DNA of 64,000 bases, from assembly GCA_003116975.1 (NCBI GenBank), contig BGKB01000106.1, positions 62,001 through 126,000 on the forward strand, written 5' to 3'. Positions 22,736 to 53,415 of this stretch are shown piece by piece. Under the pieces are notes generated by a model, which was given only the letters and a program-made list of their open reading frames with translations, searched no databases and had not been told where the DNA came from. A program made the position numbers and the translations under genes. The first letter of the stretch is position 1. Each line of letters begins with the position of its first letter. Source of the stretch: Aurantiochytrium sp. KH105 (lineage: Eukaryota; Sar; Bigyra; Thraustochytrida; Thraustochytriidae).

Positions 22736-22883
22736 AGCAAGCAAGCAAGCAAGCAAGCAAGCGAGGTGGAGGCAACCCGTGCGAGAGGTGCGGCGCGCGA
22801 GGAAGCCCCTGGGCGGCCGGCGGCACCGACATCAGGGCGAGATTGCGCGCTGGGCCAAGAGGTATCGATCGATCGATCGATCG
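22736..22883. repeat. (GCAA)n and (ATCG)n microsatellites in leader region
   Basis: Tandem GCAA units at 22736-22762 and ATCG units at 22863-22883, 280-430 bases before the aminotransferase start. GCAA runs recur at 33180-33205 and, degenerate, at 62170-62240. Confidence 0.85.
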
Positions 22884-23165
22884 CCCGCTGTTGATACGGA
22901 GGAGCAGAAGGTGCGCGTGCACTCTGCTGTTGTCAGGCGGTCGATAGAAGGAGAGAGAGGGAGAAAGAAAGTCTTGTGGCGCCGCAGCCGCGCCGCCTGC
23001 ACAACTTGCGCAGAGCCCGAACGGAGCGAGCGGCGAGGCACGACGCGGACGACGAGCGGAGCGGGCCTGCGCGGAGGCGGAGCGGCGGCAGCGGCGGCAG
23101 CGACGGCGGAGGCAGCGGCGGAGGCGGCAGAGGCGGATTGGACGGCGAGCGCGCAGTGGGGAGCC

Positions 23166-34900: not shown

Positions 34901-36806
34901 CTTGCGTCCAGGCCCAGCCAGCCCGAGTCCTCGGGTGACGCAAGCAGCCGCGAGCGCGCCGTGAGCAAAGGTAGGCCTGATAGGACAGGGGACGGGATCG
35001 GCCAAAGGCGAGGGGCGGAAGAGACGACGCATGACGGCCGCGTGCACCGCGTCTTGCGGTCTAGGCGAAGCTTGTTGCGATCGAGGCGAAGCTCCTTGCG
35101 ATTGAGGCGGTGCTCGTTGCGGCGCGTTGACATTTATTGGGCGCTGGTTCTGGAGAAGTGGGACGCATTGATTGCCATGAGCACTGCGACCACTCGCAGT
35201 GCGACCTGCGAGGCGCCGCACGTCAGCAGGAGCACTGACCATGACTGGTGGATCTGCCTTGCCCGGCCTCGCTGCGAGGTGTTGGTTTCAGACGCGCGCG
35301 TTCTCTGCGCGTTGCCTCGTGTGAGCTCTCCTGCCGCCGGCAGCGGGTGGACGAGGAAGCGCGGGCCTGGACTCGGGACTCGGGGCGGCGCCGAGGAGCG
35401 AGCTGCTCCCGCGTGCATCTAGCTTATGGTGGAAAAGGCTGGCGCGGGAGGTCGTTAGTTTAGCGTAGTTTGTAAGCTCGTGCTGCTTGGACCAGGCACG
35501 GCCGCCGCAAGACACAACAATGCAAGGCAAGGCGAGGTCTTCGGCGAATCGCGAAGGGAGCGAGCGGGAAGAGCCGCACCGCGAAGAAAGACGAAGTGAA
35601 CGCGACTGCGAGCGCAAGTTGAGAGCGACTCGCGCGAGGTGTCGAGAAGAAGAAGAAAAAGAAGAAAAAAAAGAAAAAAGTAAAAAGCGCGAAATAGAAC
35701 GAAAAGAACGGAAAAAGAAAAAATTGACTCCCTCCTTCACTGAGACTGCGGTAAGGGAGACGGCGCCACGGAGGAAAAAAAAAGTTGAAAGAAAATGGAA
35801 TTTTCAGGAAGAAAGAAAAAGGAAACGCGCAGTTCATTCAAACAAACAAACAAAGAAAGAAAAGGAAAGAGAGACAAAGCGAGAGCTGTCGCCGTCTGCC
35901 GTGCCGCTCCTGCGCGCCGTGCCGCCAGCCCCCGGCCGCCACTCGCCCCGGTCCGCGCCGCATCTCGAGCCTGCGCGCAGCTGCAGCTGCAGCGGCGCTG
36001 CCCGCCGTCCTCCCTCCCCTCCCCTCCCCTGCACTCCTCGCCCCCGCACTCGCGCGCTCGCTCGTGCGCGCTCGCAACCGGGGCGTCGCCGTGGTTGAAC
36101 CTAGGAAGGCCGGAACGCAGACGCCGACGTGCAGCGGGCGGCGGCTCCAGCGGCGGGGAGCGGGCTCTTCCGCGGACTCGCGCGCGGCCTCCTGCCCGCC
36201 GGCAGCGCGCGCGCAGCAGCAGCTCCCGCGCAGCCGCAGCGTCTCCAGCCCGGTTTCAAAAAAATTCAAATCGCCTCGCCTCGCCTCGCCTCGCCTCGCC
36301 TCGCGCCCACTCGCCGCCGCAGCTGCAGCTGCAGCTGCTGCTGCGCGCCGCGCCCGGAGCCTGCGCCGCGTCGCATCGCATCGCGCCGCGTCGCATCGCC
36401 TCGCGTCGCGTCGCGTCGCGCCCGGGGCGGGCGAGCGAGGGCGGCCAGCCAGCCAGGTGACGCGGCGGCGCCGAATTTGAAACTTTTGAAAGGGTCGGCG
36501 TTCTCTCGGTGTTCTCAGCGCAGTGACGGGGCGCGGGGGGAGGAAGAAGAAAGGGGAAAGAAAGGAAAAAGAAAGGAAGAGGCGGGAGGAAAGAAAGGCG
36601 CAGAGGCAGGAAGAAGCGCGCGGAGAAAGCGGCGGCGCACGCGGGCGTGCTGCGGCGCCGGGGCAAGAAGCAGGCGGGCAAAACGCAAAGGCGAGGGCGC
36701 GGCACTCGCGCAGAAGCGGCCGCAGCGAGCGCGCACCCGCGAGTGGAGCAGCTGCAGCAGCTGCAGGTAGAGACGGCGGGCGAGGCCGCGAAGCGGGCGG
36801 CAGAAC
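31969..36806. other. 4.8-kb gene-poor intergenic region
   Basis: No conserved protein on either strand. Contents by position: GC-rich Arg/Ala low complexity (32150-32450); strand-biased polypurine (32480-32580 and 35640-35880); (GCAA)n (33180-33205); an unresolved base after a run of A at 34237; (CCAT)n (34405-34435); (TCGCC)n and TCGCA/TCGCG pentamers (36270-36420). Several overlapping frames of 150-350 codons at 35780-36900 and 34300-35130 are composition-driven. A short gene or RNA hidden here cannot be excluded. Confidence 0.55.
36270..36305. repeat. (TCGCC)n pentanucleotide repeat
   Basis: Seven tandem TCGCC units, with related TCGCA/TCGCG units at 36365-36420, about 400-540 bases before the next start codon. 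Confidence 0.85.
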
Positions 36807-38396
36807 ATGATCAGAGTGTCGCACAAGGCGCCGGCCAAGCACCAGCAGCGGAGACGGCAGGAGCAGGAGCGGCGCGCGCGGATGATGCAGGAGCAACTGG
36901 ACACGCAGCTCCGCGCGCTCGAGAAGCAGGAGCAGCTGCGACAGGAGAAGATGCGCGTGCAGAAGATGATGCGCATGCAGCAGATTGACGAGGAGCAGGA
37001 AAGAGTGCAGCAGCAGAAGCAGCAGCAGCAGCAGCTCGAAAGGCTACCCGAGGAGACGGAAACAGAGATGGAGGCCGACGCTGACGCCGACGCTGATACC
37101 GACAGCGAACGCGAGGACAACGAGGAGAAGGACCACATTGGCCCGGACGCCCATAGCAGCGGCCGCAGCTGCGGCAGCCACAGCAGCAACGGCAGCACCA
37201 GCGAGGACGACTTTCGCGCGACGGAACGCCAGCACATGCCCCACATGTCCCAGCAGGGCAAGACCATCCCGACCTCGCTCGCCCCCCAGGACGCAGCCGA
37301 AGCCGACGATGACTTCATGCAGCAAATGATTATGCCGGCAAACGGCCTGCTCATGCCCACGGCGAACGAGTGCAGCGGGTCCGAGAGCGGCGACGACTTT
37401 GAGGACGATCTCGAGAACGATGACCTCCGTCTCGTCAATGAAGACGTCTTGGGCGACATTGACGACGGTGCCGACGAGGACCACGAGGACGACAGCAGGG
37501 AACCGTCCGAGGCCGAGCTCGAAGAGTACAAACCGCGTATGCTCCGCAAGCGCGTCCGCTCCCGCGGCCACGGTAGCCTCGACCTGGACGACATTGACGA
37601 CGCACAGGCCGTGGACCTCAACGACATTGATCTGGAGAACAAGGACATCTCGTACGAGTTCGGCAACGCCGGCGACATGCCCGTCGACCAGCGCAGCCTC
37701 TGGCACGTAGACCGCAAATTCAAGCCCGATGAGTCTCGCATTTTCAGCCTCGGACTCACGGGTGGACACTACCGCTTCGTGCTGCACAACTCGATGTCGC
37801 GCTCCGCGAGTTGGATCGGCGACGCGCGCGGTCTGCTCGTCAAGTTCTGGATTGTCAACAAGGAGCTCGGACACAGCGTCGTGCGACGCACCGAGCGCGT
37901 CGACGCCACCTGCCCCGAGCTCGAGTTTGACTTTGTCATTGGCAGCAAGGACTGCGTCTCGCAGCCCATGGAGCTCCGTGTCCAGGTCGTCTCGTCCTGC
38001 AAACACACGCTTTCCAAGGCCTCGCTCGAGCTTCGCAAGGTCAAGCTGTCCTCGTCCTATGACGTGCTGGCCGTCTCCGAGACGACGCGCCCGGAGCGCT
38101 GTCTGCTTTTGCAAGGCCGTTCCGCGAGCATCATGGGTCTCGATGCTATGGGCGGCGCCGCCGCGACGCCGCTCAAGCCCATGCCCAAGTCGCACTCGCT
38201 CAACTCGCTCAGCTCGTTGCCTTCGCATATGCGCAGATCCAAGTCCACGCAAATGCCGCGGTCTTCGTCCAAGACCCGACTCTTTTCCTTTATGCGCCGC
38301 AGCGGCTCTAAGCCCGCTCTGGCTTCCTCCAACAACCTTGCTGACCAGTCGCAGCTGTACCACCAGCAGCTTCACCAGCAACATCAACAGCAATAA
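36807..38396 (+). CDS. Acidic coiled-coil protein of unknown function
   Basis: 529 residues from the ATG at 36807. Residues ~10-85 are a strongly helical Arg/Gln/Glu segment with a short polyglutamine run, predicted coiled coil. ~88-260 is highly acidic and disordered, with an Asp-Ala-Asp run near 92-99. ~285-425 looks globular and beta-rich (RIFSLGLTGGHYRFVLHNS, LLVKFWIVNKELGHSVVRR, ELEFDFVIGSKD, MELRVQVVSS) but I do not recognise the fold; a C2- or immunoglobulin-like sandwich is possible. The C-terminus is Ser/Lys-rich and ends in Gln/His. Strong G/C third positions support coding. It is convergent with the RING-Tubby gene. Confidence 0.86.
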   Translation: MIRVSHKAPAKHQQRRRQEQERRARMMQEQLDTQLRALEKQEQLRQEKMRVQKMMRMQQIDEEQERVQQQKQQQQQLERLPEETETEMEADADADADTDSEREDNEEKDHIGPDAHSSGRSCGSHSSNGSTSEDDFRATERQHMPHMSQQGKTIPTSLAPQDAAEADDDFMQQMIMPANGLLMPTANECSGSESGDDFEDDLENDDLRLVNEDVLGDIDDGADEDHEDDSREPSEAELEEYKPRMLRKRVRSRGHGSLDLDDIDDAQAVDLNDIDLENKDISYEFGNAGDMPVDQRSLWHVDRKFKPDESRIFSLGLTGGHYRFVLHNSMSRSASWIGDARGLLVKFWIVNKELGHSVVRRTERVDATCPELEFDFVIGSKDCVSQPMELRVQVVSSCKHTLSKASLELRKVKLSSSYDVLAVSETTRPERCLLLQGRSASIMGLDAMGGAAATPLKPMPKSHSLNSLSSLPSHMRRSKSTQMPRSSSKTRLFSFMRRSGSKPALASSNNLADQSQLYHQQLHQQHQQQ

Positions 38397-39016
38397 GAAG
38401 CTGAGGCGAATGCGAGAGAGTGAGTCAAGTTTGCTCGCCTCGCCATGACGATTCGACATCCAAGAATCAAAAGGAGGGCGCGCTTTGCCTTTCTTTTCAA
38501 CCCCACCCTCTTCAATCCCCAAAGATTGGTTGATCTTCTACAAAAGTCGCGGAAAAGTCACACTCGCGAAAGAAATTGGATCAACCACTCATTGACCAAA
38601 TCGAGGATACTGCCCCAAGCGCGTATCACTCGCACGCCAAATTGCGCACACACATTCATTGTTTCATTGTTTGTTTGTCCCGCGCCCGTGCCCATTGCTC
38701 TCGTTCTCGCTGGCTGTCTTCTTGCAGCCAGTAGCATCGAAAAAAATAATAATACCAAAAAGAGCAGGACACAGGGATGGACGTGGACGAACGAACCCAA
38801 GACATATAGCTGTAGAGCCTGAATATACCTGCAACGCCAGGTCCAAATTGAGTATAGATAGATACAACCTTTATCTTTTTTGTGAATTGTCTCAATTGTA
38901 TTTCAACTTTTCCGCGATCACGCTTTTGCGTGCTTGACAGTGAATGCTTGCATGGAAGAGAGATAGAAAAGAGAAAAAATAAAAAAAAGGGTAAAAAATA
39001 GTAGTAGATTACGTTA
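38397..39016. other. Convergent intergenic region
   Basis: 620 bases between two stops, falling to clearly lower GC from 38640 on, with A/T-rich runs at 38740-38760 and 38960-39005. Nothing coding. Confidence 0.6.
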
Positions 39017-40993
39017 TCAGGCCACAAGCATTTTGCGATCGCATGCAGTAAGGACGACACCAAAGGCTTGAATCGGTAACATCGGCCAGCGGAAATCGCA
39101 CGTGTAAATGGCAAAGGGAACATCCTCAGAGATGGCCACAACCTTGCCAAATTGAAGGGCATCCGTCTCGGTCGAAAGACCGTGGACTTGAAGCTTGAAG
39201 TTCTTGTTGGACGGAAGCTGCACGCGACCGTGAAAGTCCAAAGAGTACGCCTGGATCGAGTCCAGCCAGTACGGCTCCTTGTTTTGCCCATACAGCAACT
39301 GGCTGTGGCCGTTTACAGCCTCGGCACCCTTGCGCAGATGAGAGACAAGGTGCTCACTACGTCTCTTGGGTACAATCGTCTCGGACACGAACACCTGGCC
39401 AGCGTCTGCATCATCATCTTCATCGTCGTCTTCTGAATCGTCGTCCACGGGCGTGGAGAAGGGCGCTTCAGGTGCAGTATTGGGAACGATGGAGGTACTC
39501 GAAAGGGTGCTCGCATCACCTGCGTTATCCTTTTCCTCGTACAGCTCCTTTTGTTCCTGCGCAGGCAGGCCCAAGGCGAGACTTGCAGCTTCTGCGCCAT
39601 TACAAGCCTTGGCGCGTGCCAGCGCGACCGAAAGGCTGCGCGGCCCTGACCCGTTTCCGAAGCGGTTTTGCGTGTACGCCACAGCAGCGACCTCGCGCTG
39701 CGCTGTGCCGGTAAAACGTTTCCGTCCGTCGCCCGCGCAAGTCACCGGGGCTGATACCGTGAACTCGGTGCCGGACACGTTGCCATTGACACTGCCAAGG
39801 TAGTTGTGGCTGTTGGGGGAAAAGTCCTTGCACTCTGGATCGACGGAGAGGTCAATGACCGAGGTGCCCCACTTTGTAAGGCGTTTTGAGCCGGCCATGA
39901 CAAACTTGTCCCCCTTGCGCGGGCTTTCTTCGTCGGGAAGTGCACCCAAAGGGTAAGCCAAGGTAGTGGGGGCTTGAACCCACAGCTCATATCGCACCGG
40001 CGAGCCAAAGACGCCATTGCGCACCTTGACGTAGCAGCGGAGCGTCCCCGTCGACTGTGGAAGAGGAGACATGGCAAACTGTTTGCGGTAGCCGAACAGG
40101 ACGAGTGAATTGAGCTGCAAGATGTCGCGGGGCTGGTAATCGACACGACCGAGGTCCGAGCGACACAGCGGGCAGCTCCCGGCGCCCTGCTTCTGCTCCT
40201 TCCACTCGTAAATGCACTTGGCATGTACTGGTGCGAGATTGCATTGTTGAACGCAGGGGATGGGGACTGCGGGGCGTTTGGCTGTGAACCGGCCGAGGCA
40301 AATGAGGCATGTGTCCTCTTCAATCTCCTCCTTGGAAAGCACCTCTTGTTGCTTTTGCTCGACATGCGGCTGCTGTGGGCCCTCCGGATCTGCAATCTTG
40401 GCAGCAGAGTTTGCGTCCGTAGGGCTGGCTTCGGGCATGTGCATGCTCTCGAGCACATTGAGGTCCACCGCGTGAACGCTGCTGTCTCGTCTGCCGCGCA
40501 TGCGTGTCATGGCATTGCCGCTTGCATTGCCTTCTGCGCCGTTACTGCCTCGTCTTTGGTAAAAGCGGCCACTTGTTGTACGACTCCGCGAAAGTAGGCC
40601 GATTGTGATGCTCGAGGTTCGCTCGCGCGCGGGGCGGCGTGGGTCTGCAGTCTGAGCTTTTTGCACGGTCGCGAACCGCACGGTCTCGAGGTAGTCGGTA
40701 TGGGCGCGCAAGCGTGAGGTCTCTGGCGCCTCGGACACGGTACGAGGCCTTGCGCGTTGCTCGCGGCGGTTCGTCGTCGTCGCGGCTCTGGTGCGTTCTA
40801 CGTCGAGGTTGCCGTCAAAGGCCCCATGTTGCGCTCGCATTGGCGCCGACGGTCTCCTCGCCGACGCGCCCGTCCCGCCCGAGGTCATGTCTTCGTAGAC
40901 GTCGTGCTCGTCGTCCAGAGCGCTTTGTTCCCGCTCTTCCTGCACGTCTGCCAGGAGAGACGGCGCCCTCGTGGTCCTCATGTTCATGCTCAT
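39017..40993 (-). CDS. RING-type zinc finger fused to a Tubby C-terminal domain
   Basis: 658 residues from the ATG at 40993. The frame is open to 41137, but that start is GTG; an upstream spliced exon is possible. The first ~220 residues are disordered. A RING variant starts at Cys229: CLIC, then IPC, QQC, VHAKC and CPLC, i.e. a C4HC3-like ligand order closer to RING-CH than to classic RING. Immediately after it (from ~290) comes a split Tubby domain: TLRCYVKVRNG, FVMAGSKRLTKWGTSVIDLS, NYLGSVNGNVSGTEFTV, a ~120-residue acidic insertion, then YSLDFHGRVQLPSNKNFKLQ, LQFGKV and the closing FRWPMLPIQAFGVVL. Tubby domains bind PI(4,5)P2. RING domains recruit ubiquitin E2 enzymes. The predicted role is a phosphoinositide-docked E3 ligase. 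Plants use F-box-Tubby proteins for a similar purpose, so this fusion may be an independent solution. Confidence 0.9.
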   Translation of the reverse strand: MSMNMRTTRAPSLLADVQEEREQSALDDEHDVYEDMTSGGTGASARRPSAPMRAQHGAFDGNLDVERTRAATTTNRREQRARPRTVSEAPETSRLRAHTDYLETVRFATVQKAQTADPRRPARERTSSITIGLLSRSRTTSGRFYQRRGSNGAEGNASGNAMTRMRGRRDSSVHAVDLNVLESMHMPEASPTDANSAAKIADPEGPQQPHVEQKQQEVLSKEEIEEDTCLICLGRFTAKRPAVPIPCVQQCNLAPVHAKCIYEWKEQKQGAGSCPLCRSDLGRVDYQPRDILQLNSLVLFGYRKQFAMSPLPQSTGTLRCYVKVRNGVFGSPVRYELWVQAPTTLAYPLGALPDEESPRKGDKFVMAGSKRLTKWGTSVIDLSVDPECKDFSPNSHNYLGSVNGNVSGTEFTVSAPVTCAGDGRKRFTGTAQREVAAVAYTQNRFGNGSGPRSLSVALARAKACNGAEAASLALGLPAQEQKELYEEKDNAGDASTLSSTSIVPNTAPEAPFSTPVDDDSEDDDEDDDADAGQVFVSETIVPKRRSEHLVSHLRKGAEAVNGHSQLLYGQNKEPYWLDSIQAYSLDFHGRVQLPSNKNFKLQVHGLSTETDALQFGKVVAISEDVPFAIYTCDFRWPMLPIQAFGVVLTACDRKMLVA

Positions 40994-42953
40994 CCCGAGC
41001 CGCTGCGCTGCCGCTGTGCTGTCGCCGCACAGATCGTCGTGGCGGTCTCCCCCCGCGCTCTTTTCCGCGCGCGTCGCGGGCTTGCGTTCTGGCTCGGCTG
41101 GCTTGCTTGTGCAACTTTTGCAAAAGGGTCCCTGCACCGCCAGCGTCCTCGGCGCCGAAAATGGACTCGGGCTCGGCCGGCCCCGGGTTGGCGCGGCGGC
41201 GAGGGAGGGCCGCTGCTCAGCCCCGCCCAGCGCCCGCTCCGCTCTGCGCTCGCCCGCCCGCTCTGCGCCGCTCTCTCCGCGCCCGCCTTCTCGAGCCTCC
41301 GGCGAGCGCGCGTACTGGTTCTGGTCCTGGTTCTTGGCCTCCTCCGCGCGCGCAAGCAGGCCGAGCGAGGCCCGGAAATCGGGGCCCGGCGCCCGGAATT
41401 CCGGCCGAGCGAGACCGCGCAGAAATGCCGGACTCGCGCCGCCTGCACGCGCTGAGAGCGCCCCGGCGCGGCGCGGCTGGGCAGGCAGGCCGTGCGGGCG
41501 CGGCGCTGCGGCGTACGCGCGCGGCGAGAGGACAGCTGCGCGGCGCCCGCAGGCGAGGCGGATTCGGCGCGCTCGGGAAGCGGCAGCTGCCAGGAGCCAC
41601 TTCGCGGCAAGGCATTGAGGGCATGGGTGGATGGCGCAGCGCGGAAGATGGCGTTGGATGGAGACGCAGCGAGAACTCGAGGCCGCGAGGGAAACCTGCG
41701 CCGCGCGAGGCAGCGCCGACGCGCGAGGGCCGGCGGAGGCGAGGCGGGGAAGCGGGGCGAGACATCGGCCTCGGCCTAGGTCTTGACCGCGACGTCGGGG
41801 CGGAAGCGGCGCGGAAGAAGCGGCCGAAGCCGCGAATACTTTGGGCGTATCCGCGAACGGAGCAGGAAGCCCGACGCGCGACCTTCATGGACGCTCTCAT
41901 GTTGCTGTTGCTGCTCAGGCTGCTGCTGCTGCTGCTGCTCAGGCTACGTGCGACTGCGAGTTGTAAAAGTCGGCATGAAGCTGCCGTCTGGGAGCGGCTC
42001 TGCGCTAGGTAAAGAAAGACGCCGGCAGGCTTGAGACGAGGTCGAGGTCCATTTACGTGACGCGACCTCGGGAAGCCCTCGCGCCGTGCCTGGGAGAAAA
42101 AACAAAAACGTCGCGATTGGAATCGTTGAGTTGCGCGGCGAGAAGCTCGTTGCGCTCTTGACCTCGGACCGGGAATCTCTCTTGGAGAAAGAATTGGATC
42201 AGACGGTGACGCGTTTGATGGAAAGGGCGACGCCGCCACAGGCACAGACACGGTCGCAACCGGCATCGGCCGCTTCAAAGGCGCAGTAAGGTTCTTGGTG
42301 CAGCTGCAGCTGCTAACGGTCCTAGGGTCGATCACGAGGCACAGGGCCGACGCAAGAGGACGCAAGTGCGAGTCGCGGTCCAGGGTTCGAGGAGAATACG
42401 CTTGGCTTTTTTTGGGGGGACGCCGTGAGTGTGGCGCTGAGTGCGGGCTTTGCTTGTTGCGTTGTCCTTGTTAATGCGGCAGAATATGATGATTTCGCGA
42501 CTGCATGAGTCGACGAGACAACTGCGCAACTGAACTCTTGATTCACTTCACATGTTTGCATATTTGGATCGATGCGTCTGCGTTGGGAGTCATGATCTTG
42601 CTTTCGGCAGAACTACTTCCGACAAATAAACCATCGTGCGCGAGAAGATAAGATGACGACTCATATCTATACGACCTCTTGATCGCTGATATACTTGGAG
42701 TCAGCTTTCGCTTACTTGCGAGAATGGATGATGGAACTGAAAATGAGGACACGCTTTTTTTTGGCACCTTTATAGGAAAACCGATGGTCTTCTCGCATTT
42801 GATAAACTAAAACAGCCAGATGCATGTCTACGAGTCATGTGAAAGCGCAACCTGAAACAGTTTCCTGACAACATGCCGTCGCTTGAGTCGAATTAGAGAT
42901 TATCGGTTTGGTTGCACCGCTTTGTTGGACAACAAGAGCGGCTTAATGCATTG

Positions 42954-43002
42954 CAGTGCAGCGTTCTCCGGGCCAGCCAGTGCAGAGTTCTCCGGGCCAA
43001 TC
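42954..43002 (+). promoter_or_regulatory. 24-bp direct repeat carrying a CCAAT box, upstream of first Roco gene
   Basis: CAGTGCAG, two variable bases, then TTCTCCGGGCCA occurs twice head to tail (42954-42977 and 42978-43002). In the second copy it continues as GGCCAATCAGC, a textbook CCAAT box ~330 bases before the ATG. The paralogue at 50107 lacks this pair. A promoter role is inference. Confidence 0.4.
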
Positions 43003-43083
43003 AGCGAAGTGTGTGTGCGCACGCGCGGCCTTTGCCCAAATACCGAATACACCCACTTGGCCCTCGCGCCGCGGCGCGACCGC

Positions 43084-43330
43084 GCGACTGCGCGGCAGGC
43101 GGGCAGGCGCGCAAGGCGCAAGCCAGCAACCCCCTCCCTCTCGGGCCCTTTCCTCGCGCGCGGGCGCCGCTGCGGTACACTCCGTCCGCGGCGCGCGGCA
43201 CGTGCAAAGTCTGCATCGCAGCCCAGCCAGGCTTTCTCGTCCCTTCTCGCCGCAGCCGCTTGCTCGCGGCGCTTCTGCGCGTCGCTCGCCCGCCCGCCCG
43301 CCCGCCCTCGCTCCCCTCGCCGCCGCCGCC
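43084..43330 (+). repeat. 5' flank block duplicated upstream of the second Roco gene
   Basis: From about 43084 the leader matches 49783-50106. Shared strings include GGCGCGCAAGGCGCAAGCCA, AACCCCCTCCCTCTC and CAGCCCAGCCAGGCT. Differences are mainly small length changes. The duplication that made the two genes therefore included ~250-320 bases of 5' flank. Confidence 0.8.
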
Positions 43331-46300
43331 ATGGGCCGCATCGAAGGCGCCGTGGTGTGCGTCGCGCAGTCCGCCGACCTCGTGCTGGCTGCCAGCTTCG
43401 ACGCGTACTTGCGCGCGTGGAGCAAGGAGGACGGCGCCCTCGTCTTGGAGATGAAGATTCCCAACAACAAAAGGGCCAACACTGTGGCCGTGCAGGGCAA
43501 CCTCGCCGCCGTGGGAACTGGCTACGGCGGCCTCTTCCTGATCGACCTGGCCACCGCCTCCGTCCTGCACGCCCTCCAGGGCCACACCAACGCCGTCTTG
43601 AGCGTCGTCTTCGACGGCAACGAGATCATCTCCGGCGGCGGGTACGGCGACCACACCGTCCGCGTCTGGGACAAGATCAGCGGCCGAGAGACCTTGAAGG
43701 TCGACGCCGGGGCGAAGGTCTGGGGTGTTGCCGCCCACGAAAACCTGCTCGTGGCCGGGTTGGACGACAAGACCGTGCGCGTCTTCGACCGGGCCAGCAG
43801 CGGCCCCCGCCACGTCCTCACGGATGCGACAGGCACGGTTTGGGCGGTCGCGATCGACGCGCAGCGCATGGTGAGCGGGTCCGAGGACAACAAGGTGAGG
43901 GTCTACGCCGTGCCCTCCTTCGAGCTCGTCCACGTCCTCGAAGGGCACACCAACACGGTGCGCTCTGTCGCGCTCGAGGAGGGCCTCGTCGTGAGCGGGT
44001 CCTTGGACAACACGGTCAGAGTCTGGGACGCGCGCAGCGGAGACGCGCTGCACGTCTTGCGAGGACACTCGAAGACGGTGTTTGCGGTGTCTCTCCTGGG
44101 GTCGGAGATCGTGAGCGGATCCGACGACAGGAGCGTGCGCATCTGGGACGCGGAGGCGGGCGCCTCGACGCGCGTGCTGTTCGGCTGGGAGGCCATGCGG
44201 CCCATCGAGGACGTGCTCGGCGCCTCCGCGACGACTGCGGCGGCGGAGGAGGCGCTCAAGGCGGCGCTGGCGAACGGGGACCCCGCGGAGCTGGGCCGCT
44301 GCAAGCTCATGGTCGTCGGCCAGGGCGCCGCCGGCAAGACGTCCACGGTGCGCTCGCTGCTGGGCATGCCGCCCGTGGCGGAGCACCTTTCGACGGTGGG
44401 CGTCGAGCTTAAGCGCACCGATGCAGAGTCGTGGAAGGAAGAGGAATTCGACAGCGGATTTGAAAGCCAGGCCTACCGCGTGGCGGCGCTGCGCATGGCC
44501 GCGCAGGAGCAAGCCGCGAGCAAAAAGCGGCAATCGCTGCCCAGACGCGTGTCTCGCGGCATTGTAGACGTCGTTCGTCGACGTTCGTCTGCGGCGCGAC
44601 CCTTCGTCGCAGAGGAGCAGGTGGAGCTGGTGCCCGAGGCCGAGATGGCGCAACGGTTCGAATATGCAGAAATCGAGGACATGGCCGGCAAGACGCAGTC
44701 AGGCCAGAAGATCAAGTTTACGATCTGGGACTATGCAGGTCAAGACGTCTTTTACGCGCTGCACCACATTTTCCTCACGCGCGAGGGCGGCGTCTTCATG
44801 CTCGTCTTTGACACGCAGGAACTCCTCACCGAGCAAAACAAAGCGTTAGAGTATCTGCGTTTTTGGCTCAACTCCATCAAGCTGCACGCGCCCAAAGCCC
44901 CTATTCTTTTGGTCGCAACGCATTACGATCAAGCTTCCATCAGCCTTCAAGACGTGGAAAGGATTCTCCAGTCCCTCTTTCGCGAGCTGCGTGGAATTAA
45001 ACTGGTGAAAAACAGTGGGGCTCGGCTGAGTTTTTTCCCCATTGACAACATGAGTCCCGCGGCAAACCGCGCTGCCAATCTGCGCGCTGCCGTGGAGAAA
45101 GCGGCATCCAAACTTGAGGCTGTGTCGCAAAAGATCTCGCTGCGCTGGCTCAAGGTCTTGGACGATCTCATGAAATCGAACTGCGCCCACGTTCCCTTTG
45201 CAAAAGTGCAGGAGTTGGCGACCAAGTACCACGCCGGCGACCAGACAGACGAACTGCTCGAGTTTTTCCACGAGCTTGGTATGCTTGTGCATCTGCGCGC
45301 CACCGACATCCTGCACGACAAGGTCGTGCTAAATCCCCAATGGCTCTTGGACAAGCTGGCCCGAGTCATTGCGGACGAGATTCATGTCCAGGACATTTAC
45401 TACGACGAGAGGCTTTCCGACCTCGAGCTTGAGGACGACTTCGCGCTCCTGCGTCACACGGGCATTGGTTCACGCGCCTTGCTCGAGTTCCTCTGGGACG
45501 ATGAAGAAGTCGAATACCTTGTGGAGTTCATGCGCGGCGCCATGCTACTGTCAAACTGGGATTTCCCGGAAGATACCTTCACATCAGGCCGTCAAGGCGA
45601 ACCGCTCTATCTGGTGAGCAGTCTGCTCAAGAACTCGACCGACGCTGATCTTGACGCAGCGATTGCGGACATGGACCCCGGTCTGACATGCGTTCTGGAC
45701 TTTTCCGAGTTTTTCCTTCCGGATGGCGTCTTTGCACGGCTGCTCTCGCTTTGCGCTCAGCATAGCGGAGAACATGGATCTCTAGCGCGCGCGCCTCGCC
45801 TTGCGGGTAACAAGGCCATCATCTTTTTCGGCCTCTCCGTGTTCGCGCTTGAGCAGACCCAGGACAAGATCTGGATCCGTGTCGAGCGTGACTCCAAGAA
45901 GCCCGCGAGCACGCTCAAGACGCTGGTGAGTATGTTTCGAGGCGCACGCGACGCGGTGTTTCGGGATTTACCTTGGGGGCTTCTTCTCCAGTCGCCAAGA
46001 AATGAGTCCATCTTGGTCTCGTACGACGATGTGGTTCGGGCGCGTACATCCGGCGAAGATTCTGTCTTATCTGTGAGCACCAAAGTCGTGAACGTAGGAG
46101 ACTTCGAGCCCTTCTTCCAGGACGGCTCGCTCAAGGAGGACGAGCACGATACGGGCCATGTGGAGCGGGCGCCAGTTCGACAGCCGGGTGCCGGTCTCGA
46201 GTACCACGTCTTTTTGAGCCACCGACAAGTGGACGCCGGCGACACATGCAATCTCATGGCAGAGAAACTTAAAAATCGAGGCCTCAAGGTCTGGTTCGAT

Positions 46301-46630
46301 CAGGAGAGTCAGGGCAATCTGGCAGAGGACGCCATGCGTCGTGGGATTCGCGCGTCAAAGTGCTACCTTCTTTTTCTCTCCAAGACAGTCTTCCAGGGCG
46401 CGGTGCGCATGGAGCTCGAGACGGCACTTCAGGAGGAGAAGCCTATCTTGCTTGTCCACGAGAGCGACCCGAATCGACTCGGCTTTGACACCTTTTCCAG
46501 CTACATTGAGTCGGCCCCGGATTCTGCCAAGCACCTCTTCCGCGAGACGGAGTCCATGCCATTTCAACGTCGCTTATACTTGGCCGAAGCCTTTTACGAG
46601 GAGCTCATTGCACGGATTGACGCCATTTGA
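43331..46630 (+). CDS. WD40-Roc-COR-TIR protein, copy 1 (NLR-like Roco receptor)
   Basis: 1,099 residues from the ATG at 43331 (GCCGCCATGG, optimal context). Residues 1-~285 are seven WD40 blades (e.g. GHTNTVRSVALEEGLVVSGS, DNTVRVWD). A Roc GTPase follows: Walker A GQGAAGKT (330-337), switch-region WDYAGQD, and THYD in place of NKxD, as in LRRK2. COR spans ~600-880 (DELLEFFHELGMLVHL, VVLNPQWLLDKLARVI). The C-terminal TIR domain (957-1099) opens EYHVFLSHRQVDAGD and has RMELETAL, with Glu1028 aligned to the catalytic glutamate of SARM1-type NAD hydrolases. Roco proteins normally carry kinase, LRR or ankyrin partners. Here the propeller would sense, Roc-COR would switch and dimerise, and TIR would signal or consume NAD+ (inference). 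A paralogue follows in tandem. Confidence 0.95.
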   Translation: MGRIEGAVVCVAQSADLVLAASFDAYLRAWSKEDGALVLEMKIPNNKRANTVAVQGNLAAVGTGYGGLFLIDLATASVLHALQGHTNAVLSVVFDGNEIISGGGYGDHTVRVWDKISGRETLKVDAGAKVWGVAAHENLLVAGLDDKTVRVFDRASSGPRHVLTDATGTVWAVAIDAQRMVSGSEDNKVRVYAVPSFELVHVLEGHTNTVRSVALEEGLVVSGSLDNTVRVWDARSGDALHVLRGHSKTVFAVSLLGSEIVSGSDDRSVRIWDAEAGASTRVLFGWEAMRPIEDVLGASATTAAAEEALKAALANGDPAELGRCKLMVVGQGAAGKTSTVRSLLGMPPVAEHLSTVGVELKRTDAESWKEEEFDSGFESQAYRVAALRMAAQEQAASKKRQSLPRRVSRGIVDVVRRRSSAARPFVAEEQVELVPEAEMAQRFEYAEIEDMAGKTQSGQKIKFTIWDYAGQDVFYALHHIFLTREGGVFMLVFDTQELLTEQNKALEYLRFWLNSIKLHAPKAPILLVATHYDQASISLQDVERILQSLFRELRGIKLVKNSGARLSFFPIDNMSPAANRAANLRAAVEKAASKLEAVSQKISLRWLKVLDDLMKSNCAHVPFAKVQELATKYHAGDQTDELLEFFHELGMLVHLRATDILHDKVVLNPQWLLDKLARVIADEIHVQDIYYDERLSDLELEDDFALLRHTGIGSRALLEFLWDDEEVEYLVEFMRGAMLLSNWDFPEDTFTSGRQGEPLYLVSSLLKNSTDADLDAAIADMDPGLTCVLDFSEFFLPDGVFARLLSLCAQHSGEHGSLARAPRLAGNKAIIFFGLSVFALEQTQDKIWIRVERDSKKPASTLKTLVSMFRGARDAVFRDLPWGLLLQSPRNESILVSYDDVVRARTSGEDSVLSVSTKVVNVGDFEPFFQDGSLKEDEHDTGHVERAPVRQPGAGLEYHVFLSHRQVDAGDTCNLMAEKLKNRGLKVWFDQESQGNLAEDAMRRGIRASKCYLLFLSKTVFQGAVRMELETALQEEKPILLVHESDPNRLGFDTFSSYIESAPDSAKHLFRETESMPFQRRLYLAEAFYEELIARIDAI

Positions 46631-47725
46631 TTATTGACCTTTATTCTAAAATCATGTTTGTTGTTGTAGTTCTCTATTCTGCGGCATTCGCCAACGTAGA
46701 TCAGACTCTTCAGACAGGAGAAAGAAAAATAAGAATACGAACGTTTGGTGACCAAACGAAGAAGACCCTCCTCTCGGTCGAAGCTCAGCACGATGGTAAT
46801 TAGAAGCTGAGAGAATCAGATTCTGCCAACTACTGTGTGAAAGCAAGCCATTTCTTGTACAAGAAAGAGATGCAAGGATAAGAAAAAAATGAGATGGAGT
46901 GGAAAAAGAGTCACGAGACTCGTCGATGTCTTGTTATAGATCTGTGCTAAATAGCGCCCAGTGTCTGCGTTCAGTTCAGTGCACCGAGAGCGATGCGCAC
47001 AGGGGGAGAAGCACTACACGCAGGAAACAATGGTAAACGAGAACGAACAAAGCTATCCTAACCTACGGGCCGACAAATGCTGATGATGGCCGTTCCGACG
47101 AGGCGTGATGACTCGTTCGCTCGCCCTCACGACTCCACTATGCTGTAACGCATCTGCCTTGATTGCCTTGCTAAGCGGCGTCAAGGTTTCAGAGGAGAGG
47201 CACGAAAACAGGGCAAGACGCCACAAGGAAGAGTTGGAGCAGCAGCCACTAAACTCTATTGCTGAAGCCATTGAACATCTCGCAATCCATTCTTCTTTTC
47301 AATTCTTCCCTCTCTCCCCTTTTCTTTTTGTTTCTTTTTTTTAGACTGCTGGCACTGCACGCGCTGGCCGCTGTGGCCGTCCTCAACCTCAAAGTCGGAG
47401 GCGCTGCCGTGCGAAGCAGATGCGGCAACCTGACCGACCTGGTTCGCCGAGGCTTCCATCATTAGAGACCTCCTCGACCTCATCGCCCTCGGGGAGGGTG
47501 CCGGTCTCGACGTCAGGTCCCAGGAGAGCCGACTTGTGGGCGGTCATCTGAGGAGGAGCACTAAGCTTTTTGGGCAATTCATGCGGAAGACAACAAAGAG
47601 ACGACCCTTGGTGAAGGGACACTTGTGCGCAAGAGACGAATCTTTTGATTCCGGACTTACTATAGAAATGAAACAAACCAATGCATCTCTCTTCGTCAAT
47701 GAAGTCGAGGACTGTCTTCCCTCGC
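46631..47725. other. Intergenic region with a coding-like remnant
   Basis: 1.1 kb downstream of copy 1, of lower GC than the genes. 47360-47560 is a GC-richer island whose minus strand reads as protein-like sequence in two frames (MTAHKSALLGPDVETGTL in one, MMEASANQVGQVAASASHG in the next). It may be a decayed exon. A T-rich tract lies at 47310-47342. No intact gene. Confidence 0.5.
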
Positions 47726-49305
47726 ATATCCCTATCTCAGAGAAACAAGGATATTAGTATCCTTATTACTGCTTATTCCCAATTAAATTTTAAAAGAAAA
47801 GTCTCCACCTTATTGATAGGGTTTTCAAAAAAGGTTATTTTTATTCGTATTTGCTATAAATGAGGTCGTGGAACGGTGTAGAACCACTTTTTTTCAAGCT
47901 CAAAAAGTTTTTTTTTGATGCTTGAGAAGGAGAGGGATGACCAGAAAACATCCTGGTGTGGACAATGAACGATGCCGGGTCTTCAGAAGTCGGCGAGCAT
48001 ATATCTGCTTATTTATGGTGAGAAATGCAGAACTAGTGGATATGCCATTTATCATGTCAAGAGTGAGGTCCATTAGGAGCTGACACGTGGATGTGCAGTG
48101 GAACCTTGCACGTTGTGCACATTTTGCTTGCTCGCTTGTCGTTGTCACCGCACCTTGCGCACATTTGCTGTATGACTTGAAAGGAAGATCTTTTACCCAG
48201 CGAGATTGATCTGTGATTCAATGACTTGTCGAGTCTGACCTGCTGGCCATTTCATTTGTTGAAGAACTCCCGGGTCTTTCCTACGTGCTTCCATTGACAA
48301 CTACTCACAATCTTATCAGCCTGCGCTTAGGTGGAATGGCCGTCTTTTGAATGTGATGAAATTGGGGAAATCTGGTCTGATTGACTGCATGATTTCGACA
48401 AAGTTAGGGTCCGGACCGGTCACGTCCTTGACCACCTCTGATACCACTACGTTTGGTGCCGCGGCTATCGTCAAGGCGCCTAAGATTGTCAACACGAGGC
48501 TCGGCTGCTGTAGATTCGTTTGACTGACTTCTGTCTTGCTGTCTTTCAAGGCTTCCTGTATGATAGACGTTAAAATATGGCCCAGGACGTTGCAGCTTTG
48601 GCTCGTTCAACCTTCGAATAACCTGAGACTATGGCGATGGCGTGCGCTCTTGTGTGGCCTGCGAGACAAGGTGCCCCAGAGTAGAGGCCGATGACACACA
48701 ATCTCGAGTTGCCTGTGAATCAAAAGCCCCTTGCAATTCTGCTCGAGGCGCAGCATGTAGAACGCGCTGATCTTCTTGAGAAGAGACGGATTGCACGTCC
48801 TCTCGAGTTGCCTGCGAATCGAAAAGAATGTGCGTCACTGCAGGAGACCGCGTCTCTGCACGAGACAGTGTCTCAGGAGCCGCAGACAAGGTATCAACAC
48901 GTAAGGCGAGACGTCGTCGTTGTGGCGCTTGAGCGTGGTGGTTAAAGTTCGCTCGACGATGTTGAGTCGCGCGACAAGCTGCGCTTGCCGTCTCGTCGAG
49001 ACTTAACCATCGTCAGCCGCTCTCAGGGGCGGGCCGAGCGCCAAAGACCCTTGCGCAGCCGCTACTGCGTCTCCTTGCCTGACACTTGGGGCGCAGCAAG
49101 TTCACCGCGCGCAGAAGGTCTGCTCGCGCTCGCGAACCGAGAAACCAAAGACCAGCGCTGTCAGCAACTAACTACTTTTACCAAAAAAGGATAAAATTAT
49201 CCCTATTTACTATGTAGAGCTAACTCCGGCGTAAAAATTTCTTTTAGTCAAAATTAAAAGGATAAAAATATGCTATTTTTGTATGGGGCTCTGAGATAGG
49301 GATAT
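47726..49305. mobile_element. 1.58-kb DNA element with 17-bp terminal inverted repeats, probably non-autonomous
   Basis: ATATCCCTATCTCAGAG at 47726-47742 is repeated as its perfect complement at 49289-49305, facing inward. Both ends are A/T-rich for ~120 bases and carry small GGATA hairpins (AAGGATA/TATCCTT at 47746-47763; GGATAA/TTATCC at 49190-49203). If the repeat is taken to start at TCCCTATCTC, each end is flanked by TA, as expected of a Tc1/mariner-type target duplication. The interior (47870-49150) has no intact transposase. It holds two ~110-bp-spaced copies of CTCGAGTTGCCTG. Family assignment is tentative. Confidence 0.6.
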
Positions 49306-50106
49306 TTAAGTCGAGAAATGCATTTTGCGCCTTATTACACCTGTGAAAACATCGGCCACGCGGTTCAAATAACCACGTTTAGCTGTCACCGTTCCATTCA
49401 AGACGGACGGTGCAGAGTGCTCGCCTTTAAAGCGTAGCTTTGACTTGTAATACATTTCGTCACAGAGTGAGTATACGTGTGCACACAAGTGAAGCATCGC
49501 CGTTGTTGTTGGATCATCAGAGTGCTCGTGCTAGAGCAAAGACTTTCCAATCATCAATCATGATCAGGGAGTACTTCGCCTCCTTTCGGTATACTACATT
49601 TCTGCTCGAGTTCTTCACTTCCCCAGCGGGAGAACAACTCCTGCGATGTGACCGAAGATGCTTTTGTGGCAGTCTGAGCCAGCACTCCCGCGCGTGTGCA
49701 CCGTCCGCGCGTGCCAGCGTGTGCACACGCTGGTCTTCTTCGCCCAAACACCTAATCCCCCTTTCGCCCCTGCGTGCAAGGCGCGACCGCGCGGCAGGCA
49801 GGCAGGCGCGCAAGGCGCAAGCCAGCAACCCCCTCCCTCTCTCTCCCCTCCTCGCGCGTGGGCGCCGCCGCGACACGCTCCGTCCGCGCGCCCCGTGGAG
49901 AACGCGCCAAGGCCGCATCGCATCAGCAGCCAGCCCAGCCAGGCTCTCTCTCCCAGCGCCCTTCCTTTCCTTTCCTCCCCTCGCCCGAGTCTCTCCCTCT
50001 CTCTCTCTCTGCTTTCTCGCCCCCTCTCCGCCCCCACCCGCTCGCTCGCGCCGCTTGCCCGCCCGCCCGCCCGCCCGCGCTCGCTCCCCTCGCCGCCGTT
50101 GCCGCC
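49306..50106. promoter_or_regulatory. 5' flank of second Roco gene
   Basis: 801 bases between the DNA element and the copy-2 ATG. The last ~320 bases (49783-50106) are homologous to the 43084-43330 block and include CT-rich tracts (49835-49855, 49990-50010) and (CCCG)n-like sequence at 50057-50078. The upstream 450 bases are not shared with copy 1. Confidence 0.6.
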
Positions 50107-53100
50107 ATGGGCCGCATCGGAGGCTTCGTGCTCGGCGTCGCGCAGTCCGCCGACCTCGTGTTGGCCGCCAGCGGCGACGACTGCGCCTTGCGAGCATGGA
50201 GCAAGAAGGACGGCGCCCTCGTCTTGGAGATGAAGACGCCCAACAACAAAAAGGCCCTCAGAGTGGCCGTGCAGGGCAACCTCGCCGCCGTGGGGACTCA
50301 AGAAGGCGGCCTCTTCCTGATCGACCTGGCCACCGCCTCCGTCCTGCACGCCCTCCAGGGCCACACCGGCCATGTCTTGAGCGTCATCTTCGACGGCAAC
50401 GAGATCATCTCCGGCGGCGGGTCCGGCGACCAGACCGTCCGCGTCTGGGACAAGATCAGCGGCCGAGAGACCTTGAGGATCGACGCCGGGGCGGGGGTCT
50501 TCAGCGTTGCCGCCCACGAGAACCTGCTCGTGGCCGGGTTGAAAGACAACACCGTGCGCGTCTTCGACCGGGCCAGCGGCGGCCCACGCCACGTCCTCAC
50601 GGAGGCGACACGCCAGGTCTACGCGGTCGCGATCGACGCGCAGCGCATGGTGAGCGGGTCCCAAGACAACAAGGTGAGGGTCTACGCCGTGCCTTCCTTC
50701 CAGCTCGTCCGCGTCCTCGAAGGACACACTAATGGTGTGACCTCTGTCGCGCTCGAGGGAGACCGCATCGTGAGCGGGTCCTTCGACCGCACGGTCAGAC
50801 TCTGGGACGCGCGCAGCGGAGCGAAGCTGCACGTCTTGCAAGGACACTCGTGGTCGGTGCTTTCGGTCTCTCTCTTGGGGTCGGAGATCGTGAGCGGATC
50901 TAGGGACAGCAGCGTGCGCATCTGGGACGCGGAGACGGGCGCCTCGACGCGCGTGCTGGACGGCACGGAGGCCGTGCGGCCCATCGAGGACGTGCTCGGC
51001 GGCCCCGCGACGACTGCGGCGGCGAAGGAGGCGCTCAAGGCGGCGCTGGCGAACGGGGACCCCGCGGAGCTGGGCCGCTGCAAGCTCATGGTCGTCGGCC
51101 AGGGCGCCGCCGGCAAGACGTCCACGGTGCGCTCGCTGCTGGGCATGGCGCCGGAGAAGAATCATATCTCCACGGTGGGCGTCGAGCTCAAGCGCACCGA
51201 TGCAGAGTCGTGGCGGGAAGAGGAATTCGACAGCGGATTTGAACGCCAGGCCTACCGCGTGGCGGCGCTGCGCATGGCCGCGCAGGAGCAAGCGGCGAGC
51301 AAGAAGCGGCAATCGCTGCCCAGGCGCGTGTCTCGCGGCATTGTAGACGTCGTTCGTCGACGTTCGTCTGCGGCGCGACCCTTCGTCGCAGAGGAGCAGG
51401 TGGAGCTGGTGCCCGAGGCCGAGATGGCGCAGCGGTTCGAATATGCGGAAATCGCGGACATGGCCGGCAAGACGCAGTCGGGCCAGAAGGTCAAGTTTAC
51501 GATCTGGGACTATGCAGGTCAGGACGTCTTTTACGCGCTGCACCACATTTTCCTTACGCGCGAGGGCGGCGTCTTCATGCTCGTCTTTGACATGCAGGAA
51601 CTCCTCACCGAGCAAAACAAAGCTTTAGAGTATCTGCGCTTTTGGCTCAACTCCATCAAGCTGCACGCGCCCAAAGCCCCTATTCTTTTGGTCGCAACGC
51701 ATTACGATCAAGCTTCCAGCAGCCTTCAAGACGTGGAAAGGATTCTCCAGTCCCTCTTTCGTAAGCTGCGCGGAATCAAACTGGTGAAAAACAGTGGGGC
51801 TCAGCGGAGTTTCTTCCCCATTGACAACATGAGTCCCGCGGCGAACCGCGCTGCGGATCTGCGCGCTGCTGTGGAGAAAGCGGCATCCAAACTTGAGGCT
51901 GTGTCGCAAAAGATTTCGCTGCGCTGGCTCAAGGTCTTGGACGATCTCATGAAATTAAACCGCGCCCACGTTCCCTTTGCAAAAGTGCAGGAGCTGGCGA
52001 CCAAGTACCACGCCGGCGACCAGACAGATGAGCTACTCAAATTTTTCCACGAGCTCGGCATGCTTGTGCATCTGCGTGCCACCGATACGCTGCACGACAA
52101 GGTCGTGCTAAACCCACAGTGGCTTTTGGACAAGCTGGCCCGAGTCATTGCAGACGAGATTCATGTCCAGGACATTTACTACGACGAGAGGCTTTCCGAC
52201 CTCGACCTTGAGGACGATTTTGATCATTTGCGGCTTCGAGGCATTGGCTCGCGTCGGCTCTTTCATTTTCTCTGGAATGGCGAAGAAGTCGAATATCTAT
52301 TGGATTTTATGCGCGCCACCATGCTTCTCTCCATATGGTCCTTCTCTGAGGATGGCAGCGCGACGCAAGAAGGGGCCGAGCAGACCTTTCTTGTGAGCAG
52401 CCTTCTCAATCATGCTGAAGATGATGCGCTTCGTTCCGAAATCGCCGGCATGCCACTGGGCCTGACGTGCGTCCTCGACTTTTCGCGCTTTTTTCTCCCC
52501 GACGGCGTCTTCGCACGCATCCTGTCCCTCTGCGCTGAACATAGTAGTAAGATGAGCGAGGGCACCCGAGAGCCGCAGCTTGCCGCCACAGAAGCCATTG
52601 TTCGTTTTGGGCTCTCTGTCTTTGCGCTCCAAGTGGAGGGCGATCAAATTTGGCTTCGCGCAGCAGGCGGTACGGAGCAGCCAGCCAGTACGCTCAAAAT
52701 GCTGATCAGCATGTTTCAGGGTGCGCGCGATGCGGTCTTCCAAGACCTTCCCTGGGAGCTGCTTTTGCAGTGCCCCAGAGATCCCTCTATTTTCGTGTCT
52801 TTCGATGACCTGACAAAAGCGCGAGATGCGAATCGTGACAAAGTCATGTCCACGGGGACAGCAAATGCACAGGTGGCGGACTTTGAGCCCTTCTTTGTCG
52901 ACGGTTCGCTTACTGAGGATGTGCATGACAATGGCGCGCCGCAATTGGCCATGGCGCTCGATTCTGCTTTCAAATATCACGTCTTCCTGAGCCATCGACA
53001 GATCGAAGCCGGTGACGCGTGCAACCTCATGGCAGAGAAGCTAAAGTACCGTGGTGTGCGTGTCTGGGTTGATCAGGAGAGCGAGGGCAACCTTGCCGAG

Positions 53101-53415
53101 GCGGAGATGCGGCGTGGGATCCAGGACTCCAGGTGCTATCTTTTGTTCCTATCCAAGACCGTCTTTACGTCGGCTGCGGTGCGCATGGAGCTCTCCACGG
53201 CGCTCGAAATGGAGAAGCCAATCTTGCTCGTGCATGAGAGCGAGACGGATCGTCCTGGCTTCGCCAATTTCAAAACCTACATTGACTCGGCGCCTCCAAA
53301 TGCTGCGGATCTTTTTGCTACCGTCGAGTCCATGCCTTTCCAGCGTCGTCTTTATCTGGCCAAGGGTTTTTACGATGAGCTTACTGCGCGAATCGAGCGT
53401 GCTGGCTGTAAATAA
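50107..53415 (+). CDS. WD40-Roc-COR-TIR protein, copy 2 (NLR-like Roco receptor)
   Basis: 1,102 residues from the ATG at 50107, same context and domain order as copy 1. Walker A GQGAAGKT is at 331-338 because blade 1 is one residue longer. WDYAGQD, THYD and VVLNPQWLLDKLARVI are unchanged, and the TIR domain opens KYHVFLSHRQIEAGD with RMELSTAL and Glu1028. Roc and early COR are almost identical to copy 1 in protein and DNA. From ~52200 on (late COR, TIR) divergence jumps. In the WD40 part, changes fall at equivalent sites of every blade. Both copies are intact, so both are probably functional receptors with different recognition surfaces (inference). Confidence 0.95.
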   Translation: MGRIGGFVLGVAQSADLVLAASGDDCALRAWSKKDGALVLEMKTPNNKKALRVAVQGNLAAVGTQEGGLFLIDLATASVLHALQGHTGHVLSVIFDGNEIISGGGSGDQTVRVWDKISGRETLRIDAGAGVFSVAAHENLLVAGLKDNTVRVFDRASGGPRHVLTEATRQVYAVAIDAQRMVSGSQDNKVRVYAVPSFQLVRVLEGHTNGVTSVALEGDRIVSGSFDRTVRLWDARSGAKLHVLQGHSWSVLSVSLLGSEIVSGSRDSSVRIWDAETGASTRVLDGTEAVRPIEDVLGGPATTAAAKEALKAALANGDPAELGRCKLMVVGQGAAGKTSTVRSLLGMAPEKNHISTVGVELKRTDAESWREEEFDSGFERQAYRVAALRMAAQEQAASKKRQSLPRRVSRGIVDVVRRRSSAARPFVAEEQVELVPEAEMAQRFEYAEIADMAGKTQSGQKVKFTIWDYAGQDVFYALHHIFLTREGGVFMLVFDMQELLTEQNKALEYLRFWLNSIKLHAPKAPILLVATHYDQASSSLQDVERILQSLFRKLRGIKLVKNSGAQRSFFPIDNMSPAANRAADLRAAVEKAASKLEAVSQKISLRWLKVLDDLMKLNRAHVPFAKVQELATKYHAGDQTDELLKFFHELGMLVHLRATDTLHDKVVLNPQWLLDKLARVIADEIHVQDIYYDERLSDLDLEDDFDHLRLRGIGSRRLFHFLWNGEEVEYLLDFMRATMLLSIWSFSEDGSATQEGAEQTFLVSSLLNHAEDDALRSEIAGMPLGLTCVLDFSRFFLPDGVFARILSLCAEHSSKMSEGTREPQLAATEAIVRFGLSVFALQVEGDQIWLRAAGGTEQPASTLKMLISMFQGARDAVFQDLPWELLLQCPRDPSIFVSFDDLTKARDANRDKVMSTGTANAQVADFEPFFVDGSLTEDVHDNGAPQLAMALDSAFKYHVFLSHRQIEAGDACNLMAEKLKYRGVRVWVDQESEGNLAEAEMRRGIQDSRCYLLFLSKTVFTSAAVRMELSTALEMEKPILLVHESETDRPGFANFKTYIDSAPPNAADLFATVESMPFQRRLYLAKGFYDELTARIERAGCK

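Follow-up and report, generated by a model that had tools for sequence, protein, structure and literature searches.

Two genes of the thraustochytrid Aurantiochytrium sp. KH105, here called g1 and g2, probably belong to a large germline-encoded repertoire of cytosolic non-self receptors. In such a repertoire specificity would reside in the sensor face, a Roc-COR GTPase would serve as the switch, a TIR domain would act as the effector, and recombination together with selection would supply diversity. Both genes lie in the window, the whole stretch of 64,000 nucleotides that was analysed, and coordinates without a contig or locus label refer to it. If the reading is true, a single-celled thraustochytrid has a hypervariable receptor repertoire with a Roco GTPase in place of the NLR ATPase. 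Discussion of hypervariable repertoires has mostly concerned plants, fungi and animals, with brown algae and multicellular bacteria added in papers cited below.

Results

Architecture of the two genes

Both genes are single exons on the forward strand. The earlier note on this DNA had described them as two intact WD40-Roc-COR-TIR genes, and the single open frames, Pfam domains, motifs and structure models agree. g1 (43331..46630, 1099 aa) begins with a seven-blade WD40 sensor (43331..44185), recognised by column entropy, predicted structure and a test of faces. Next come a Roc GTPase (44291..45145), with its P-loop at 44318-44341, WDYAGQ at 44726-44743 and THYD at 44918-44929, then COR (45146..46120) and a TIR domain (46196..46627). 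g2 (50107..53415, 1102 aa) has its WD40 sensor at 50107..50961, Roc and COR at 51067..52896 and TIR at 52975..53412.

Roc scores 70.1 bits in g1 and 72.7 bits in g2 against a Pfam cut-off of 27 bits, and the P-loop, WDYAGQ and THYD motifs are present in both. In phmmer searches the Roc part matched LRRK2 as well as 4wnr and 3dpu, which we take to be bacterial Roco structures. COR follows directly after Roc; COR-A is above its Pfam cut-off and COR-B is assigned from the model and conservation only. A Roc GTPase followed by COR places both genes in the Roco family. Neither NACHT nor NB-ARC was among the best 25 of the 43 and 48 Pfam families listed for g1 and g2, respectively, and the nucleotide-binding module is Roc. 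The g1 Roc domain has a basic insert between the P-loop and switch II (residues ~370-440, with low model confidence near 398-427) that could bind membrane or nucleic acid.

Three other frames were seen in the window. One with a Tubby domain, and a RING-like finger slightly below its cut-off, adjoins g1 (39020-41137, reverse strand). A class-III aminotransferase frame with a long N-terminal part lies at 22527-25178 (forward strand), and an ADA2-like transcriptional adaptor frame at 58978-60852 (reverse strand).

The C-terminal domain was checked by domain search and structure prediction, as the earlier note had proposed. It is a TIR fold, and SARM1 is the closest TIR fold at about 20% identity. 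Glu1028 (codon 46412-46414 in g1, 53188-53190 in g2), which the note had placed at the SARM1 catalytic position, is Glu in 39/42 family members, with gaps in the other 3, and the catalytic Glu is present in 25/26 rows of alignment A1. SARM1 and plant TIRs usually carry a tryptophan four residues before the catalytic Glu; it is not known to be essential. In the 42 members this residue is Ala in 26, a gap in 3, and K, E, R and others in the rest, and no tryptophan was seen among the five commonest residues. Glu also occurs in TIRs without NADase activity. Predicted cleavage of NAD+ by the TIR domain is plausible. Because another residue, most often Ala, stands in place of the tryptophan, NADase activity can be called likely and no more.

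A dispersed family

The 76-Mb assembly was searched for Roc, 150 of 381 candidates were scored, and the family was counted by hand from that list. About 58 places, both haplotypes together, have a partial Roc match like that of g1 and g2, in open frames of 435-1369 aa. Forty-two of the 58, including the window genes, were read; the other 16 were assigned by Roc match alone. With so many similar places, g1 and g2 are not a self-contained two-gene system. The WD40 frame is broken or missing in 5/42 members, among them the copy on contig C115 (L030), which was replaced by a fuller C115 stretch in the counts from the linkage analysis onward. Many contigs are apparent allelic pairs, as equal-scoring Roc matches recur on two contigs. 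The window is part of contig C106, which aligns colinearly with C115 for 10.4 kb at 91%.

About 14 further places gave similar Roc matches in frames of 682-1054 aa, and two of them, L009 and L010, were read. They contain a second group of Roc-COR-TIR genes (L009:2131-4176, forward; L010:5245-7857, reverse) with the P-loop at about residue 69 of the frame, and these adjoin a WD40 member on both haplotypes. In the L010 gene Pfam found Roc, COR-A and TIR, and no WD40. The two genes (L009_a, L010_a) were left out of the 42-sequence family alignment.

The 43 protein matches were led by Hondaea fermentalgiana, a thraustochytrid stramenopile, with several at 98-99.8% to members read. In the Hondaea records (P0003-P0043) the family is named F-box/WD repeat-containing protein 7, Rab GTPase, LRRK1/2 or protein kinase, and many gene models begin at Roc. 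These names and models have hidden the repertoire in public records. A prokaryote genome collection, scanned with A3 by way of two short patterns, gave 29 matching stretches and no confirmed relative, in a scan sensitive to close relatives only. Searches of NCBIfam and PADLOC gave generic or partial matches only. No description of a WD40-Roc-COR-TIR architecture or repertoire was found among the matches listed, in literature on Roco or Roc-COR with WD40, TIR and immunity, or in literature on labyrinthulo with TIR domain, including the accessible parts of PMC7159879 and PMC11378527.

A hypervariable top face

Entropy is at least 2 bits in 34 of the 290 WD40 columns when the 42 sequences are aligned. 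Thirty of the 34 fall in one register per blade, GHT[x1][x2]V[x3]SV ... SGS[x4]D[x5]TVRVWD, and since that register is shared by all seven blades, misalignment is ruled out as the source of the variability. In g1 the register codons are residues 7, 9, 23, 25, 47, 48, 50, 64, 87, 88, 90, 106, 129, 131, 145, 147, 169, 171, 185, 187, 208, 209, 211, 225, 227, 248, 249, 251, 265 and 267; residues 5, 26, 65 and 105 are hypervariable outside the register. In the strand layout of the model, 33/34 columns are on the top (d-a / b-c) rim and none on the bottom rim. Counting loops only, 24 are on the top and 0 on the opposite rim, with the other 10 in strands (Fisher p 1.4e-7). About 35 top-face residues vary strongly and the rest of the WD40 domain is nearly constant. 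Register residues are rich in G, N, R, Y, K and W. High identity between the repeats of one gene was not found; by eye, without a score, the seven blades differ from one another.

The 35-position register set was chosen after the variability was seen. The strand layout of the model, the variable sites of the fungal HNWD receptors and a ranking of codons by pN are independent of that choice. In the ranking, which was blind to the register, 28 of the 30 codons of highest pN are register codons.

The 35 register residues were read as a barcode. The five members with a broken or missing WD40 frame were left out of this and the other 37-member counts (dN/dS, fourfold sites, codon bases). There are 35 distinct barcodes in the 37 members with intact WD40; treating each of two near-identical pairs as one barcode lowers the count to 33. 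Two pairs are identical, two differ at one position, and all others differ by at least 51%, which leaves a gap between 3% and 51%.

Selection on register codons

Over 666 pairs, the Nei-Gojobori dN/dS of register codons is 2.36, compared with 0.50 for the rest of WD40, 0.31 for Roc, 0.12 for COR-A, 0.19 for COR-B and 0.13 for TIR; these are pairwise counts on a recombining family rather than tree-based estimates. In the 17 near-consensus members (of 41), which include L025 and L048 with broken frames and some members allelic to each other, register dN is 0.80 and framework dS 0.034, so that the first is 23.6 times the second (bootstrap 19-30). When dN and dS are both taken from register codons, their ratio is a milder 3.5 (3.0-4.4). 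The framework set leaves out columns 5, 26, 49, 65, 105 and 107, and in one count also 24. Silent divergence in these 17 members is 0.225 in register codons and 0.034 in the framework; because the register value is the higher, part of the register difference may predate the framework. Diversifying selection acts on paired top-face WD40 codons, a pattern like that of HNWD genes. WD40 and Roco proteins have many non-immune roles, and the genes might accordingly be an ordinary scaffold or stress-signalling family spread by neutral duplication. That is very improbable, as variation is limited to one face and replacement is far above silent change. Conservation of switch and effector beside free variation of the sensor face is the pattern expected of a receptor repertoire.

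Recombination and mosaic genes

Fourfold-site mismatch among the 37 members is 0.08-0.17 over codons 1-360, 0.2-0.3 to codon 520 and 0.39-0.58 beyond. By this measure the sensors appear young or homogenised and the COR-TIR tails old. The window genes have the same structure. From the upstream flank to COR-A, g1 (43082..45546, forward) is close to g2 (49781-52325) in two aligned blocks, and the similarity ends at about 45546 in g1 and about 52325 in g2. Third-base identity is 0.84-0.98 up to codon 700, then drops sharply to 0.29-0.53. The other haplotype, contig C115, is colinear with the window over 35139..45546 and then runs into the 3' part of g2. C115 is thus a haplotype with one recombinant gene that has a g1-like front and a g2-like back. 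The WD40 domain of this gene has a frameshift that may be real or an assembly error. Two short stretches of the window (36271-36304 and 72-197) gave several overlapping-register matches to C115 and resemble repeat arrays.

Shorter shared patches were sought in the barcodes. L023 was left out of the linkage, rare-variant, shared-run, framework-change and spread counts, and one of each of five close pairs was left out of the linkage, shared-run and spread counts. Runs of 5-7 identical register codons occur in 13/630 pairs, against about 1.4 expected from column shuffles. g2, whose WD40 framework is 1.1% off the family consensus, shares such a run with L028 (codons 23 to 87) and another with L036 (codons 87 to 129). 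Otherwise the register columns are almost unlinked: r is 0.05 for adjacent columns within 3 codons (null sd 0.011) and near 0 beyond 60 codons. Since the mean barcode difference equals the column expectation by construction, only its spread is informative; the sd is 0.070, compared with 0.064 for independent columns. As the sole cause, recent conversion of whole domains from a single sampled donor is unsupported, as besides four close pairs none of the 37 members is nearer than 51% in barcode.

Kept and replaced barcodes

Twenty-one pairs were picked from the most similar loci, some of them allelic by flanking DNA or contig synteny. Alleles either keep or replace the barcode. Kept barcodes differ at 0 (L009b/L010b), 1 (L011/L015), 3 (L017/L020) and 6 (g1/C115) of 102-105 register bases, with about 2% framework divergence. 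L016/L029, with short flanks, differ at 2/105. In the L017/L020 alleles WD40 is 2% apart and Roc-COR-A 17%, so exchange of the switch alone is possible. Barcodes were replaced in three pairs identified by flanks, L019/L025 (48/105), L014/L024 (32/99) and L012/L022 (41/105), and in four identified by synteny, L043/L048 (54/105), L026/L047 (46/105), L032/L041 (52/103) and L021/L028 (51/102). Replaced pairs differ by 3-9% in the rest of WD40 and by 2.6-12% in COR-B/TIR, apart from L012/L022 with 16.5%. The C115 gene differs from g2 at 52/105 register bases and by only 1% in COR-B/TIR.

A near-consensus member is present in 6/7 replaced pairs and 0/4 kept pairs. Kept alleles have 10-100 rare framework variants in common; 6/7 replaced pairs have none, and L014/L024 has 5. 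Such an absence would follow from import of the sensor tract from a different locus. Broken frames, present in some replaced copies, would not on their own restrict change to the register.

In the comparison of strains, six Hondaea proteins retain 89-100% of the barcode found in the member that they match best. P0016 aligned at 13 barcode positions only, and P0008 has no close counterpart. P0024, an odd gene model, is 95.6% identical to g1 in COR-TIR and has only 24% of 25 barcode positions in common with it. Several long-diverged members keep their barcodes between alleles and strains, so diversification is not equally active everywhere. The agreement with Hondaea also bears on the assembly. 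GC-rich repeats, and frameshifts of which some may be sequencing errors, could make the variation an artefact of assembling a repetitive family. This is hardly credible: errors would not limit differences to the codons of one face, and the six public proteins carry most or all of the barcode positions of their best matches.

The size of the effect is a puzzle, as the 17 near-consensus members differ by 2.5% in the framework and by 43% in the register. We wondered whether register codons are rewritten by a dedicated system while the framework is copied, akin to diversity-generating retroelements. The contrast in the 17 members, the gap in barcode differences, and the greater variation at codon bases 1 and 2 than at base 3 (0.54, 0.53 and 0.39, with the third base by eye fixed in several columns) would fit such targeting. 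Against it, the shared register runs and weak short-range linkage point to inherited patches, unexpected from independent rewriting, and kept alleles show few register changes beside their framework divergence. L039 and L045 have 11 rare framework variants in common over codons 19-70, where 2/7 register codons differ, against 19/25 beyond codon 70, a patchwork that favours patch exchange. Framework changes have no adenine bias, which speaks against adenine-directed mutagenesis of the retroelement kind as sole cause. Dedicated diversification is thus quite improbable. We also regard as unlikely a codon-focused system of eukaryotic origin that renews the repertoire by discrete in-place rewriting of top-face codons, holds the framework to a master consensus and feeds a Roc-COR-TIR death switch. 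Most simply, ectopic conversion of short tracts and crossing-over, together with strong diversifying selection, would explain the pattern.

Discussion

The earlier note had read the genes as receptors with a WD40 sensor, a Roc-COR switch and a TIR effector. That part is strengthened by the expanded family, the hypervariable top face, dN > dS, allelic replacement of sensors and the SARM1-like TIR. Its reading of a tandem-pair system gives way to one in which the pair is two draws from a dispersed repertoire.

We propose that a ligand docks on the top face of the WD40 propeller, and that the approximately 35 residues of the five-position register per blade determine which ligand it is. Binding would act on the Roc-COR switch, causing it to dimerise or rearrange and thereby bring TIR domains together, as general Roco and TIR biology would suggest. 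The TIR domains would then signal or consume NAD+, probably causing cell death. Ectopic recombination, by gene conversion and unequal crossing-over, would move sensor tracts between dispersed loci and join them to old COR-TIR tails, and diversifying selection on top-face codons would yield new specificities. Ligand binding, switching, NADase activity and an immune or self/non-self role are all inferred. The family is in effect a natural series of exchangeable sensors built on a common scaffold. It tests the range of variation that a WD40 top face tolerates, and it offers a system to ask whether Roc-COR can drive TIR assembly.

Such a repertoire might instead detect proteins of the same species on contact between cells or cytoplasm, in the way that HET-D and HET-E respond to HET-C in Podospora. 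The HNWD allorecognition genes have a matching register, and haplotypes differ in copy number and barcode as polymorphic compatibility genes would. The approximately 58 places, however, exceed the Podospora HNWD family, given as 10 members in the accessible part of PMC1805685, and the simultaneous presence of many different barcodes in one genome is more in keeping with a repertoire against pathogens. Allorecognition is possible but doubtful. We tentatively prefer immunity because so many different barcodes occur in one genome, a preference drawn from sequence.

Among known systems, NLR/STAND receptors have an NB-ARC or NACHT ATPase where this family has Roc. SARM1-class TIR NADases provide the closest TIR fold and keep the catalytic Glu; they differ in sequence, in the usual tryptophan at Glu minus 4 and in the fusion to WD40-Roc-COR. 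Mucochytrium quahogii P0031 also joins Roc-COR to TIR, and Pfam at E 1e-5 found no WD40 in it. Chondrus TPR-ROCO-TIR is another Roc-COR with TIR, as described in the accessible part of PMC11378527. Bacterial conflict sensors diversified by retroelements, as far as the available text of PMC10907252 describes them, likewise combine codon-limited hypervariability in a sensor with a switch and effectors that include TIR. They use a CLec sensor and a retroelement template, and the thraustochytrid family shows no sign of adenine-directed framework change.

The candidate immune LRR-ROCO receptors of brown algae are also stramenopile ROCO proteins, expanded and with diversifying selection at the face by which the sensor repeats bind. 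In the accessible part of PMC11378527 they lack TIR, are alternatively spliced and have an LRR sensor encoded by shuffled 72-bp exons, in contrast to a WD40 sensor in one open frame and exon with TIR; the same text gives Schizochytrium aggregatum no more than four ROCO copies. The HNWD NLRs of Podospora anserina (HET-D, HET-E, HET-R) have positively selected hypervariable WD40 codons in the same two places per blade, the d-a loop and the b-c turn, as pairs flanking a conserved residue (PMC1805685, accessible part). They too form a multigene family with exchange between members, a nucleotide switch and an effector domain. Unlike the thraustochytrid family they use a NACHT switch and a HET effector, and their WD40 repeats are 80-100% identical within a gene and variable in number (PMC1805685 and PMC12222747, accessible parts). 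The thraustochytrid genes have a Roc-COR GTPase, TIR and an N-terminal WD40 domain whose seven blades differ from one another and are homogenised from gene to gene. The nearest known kinds are the fungal HNWD receptors and the brown-algal LRR-ROCOs.
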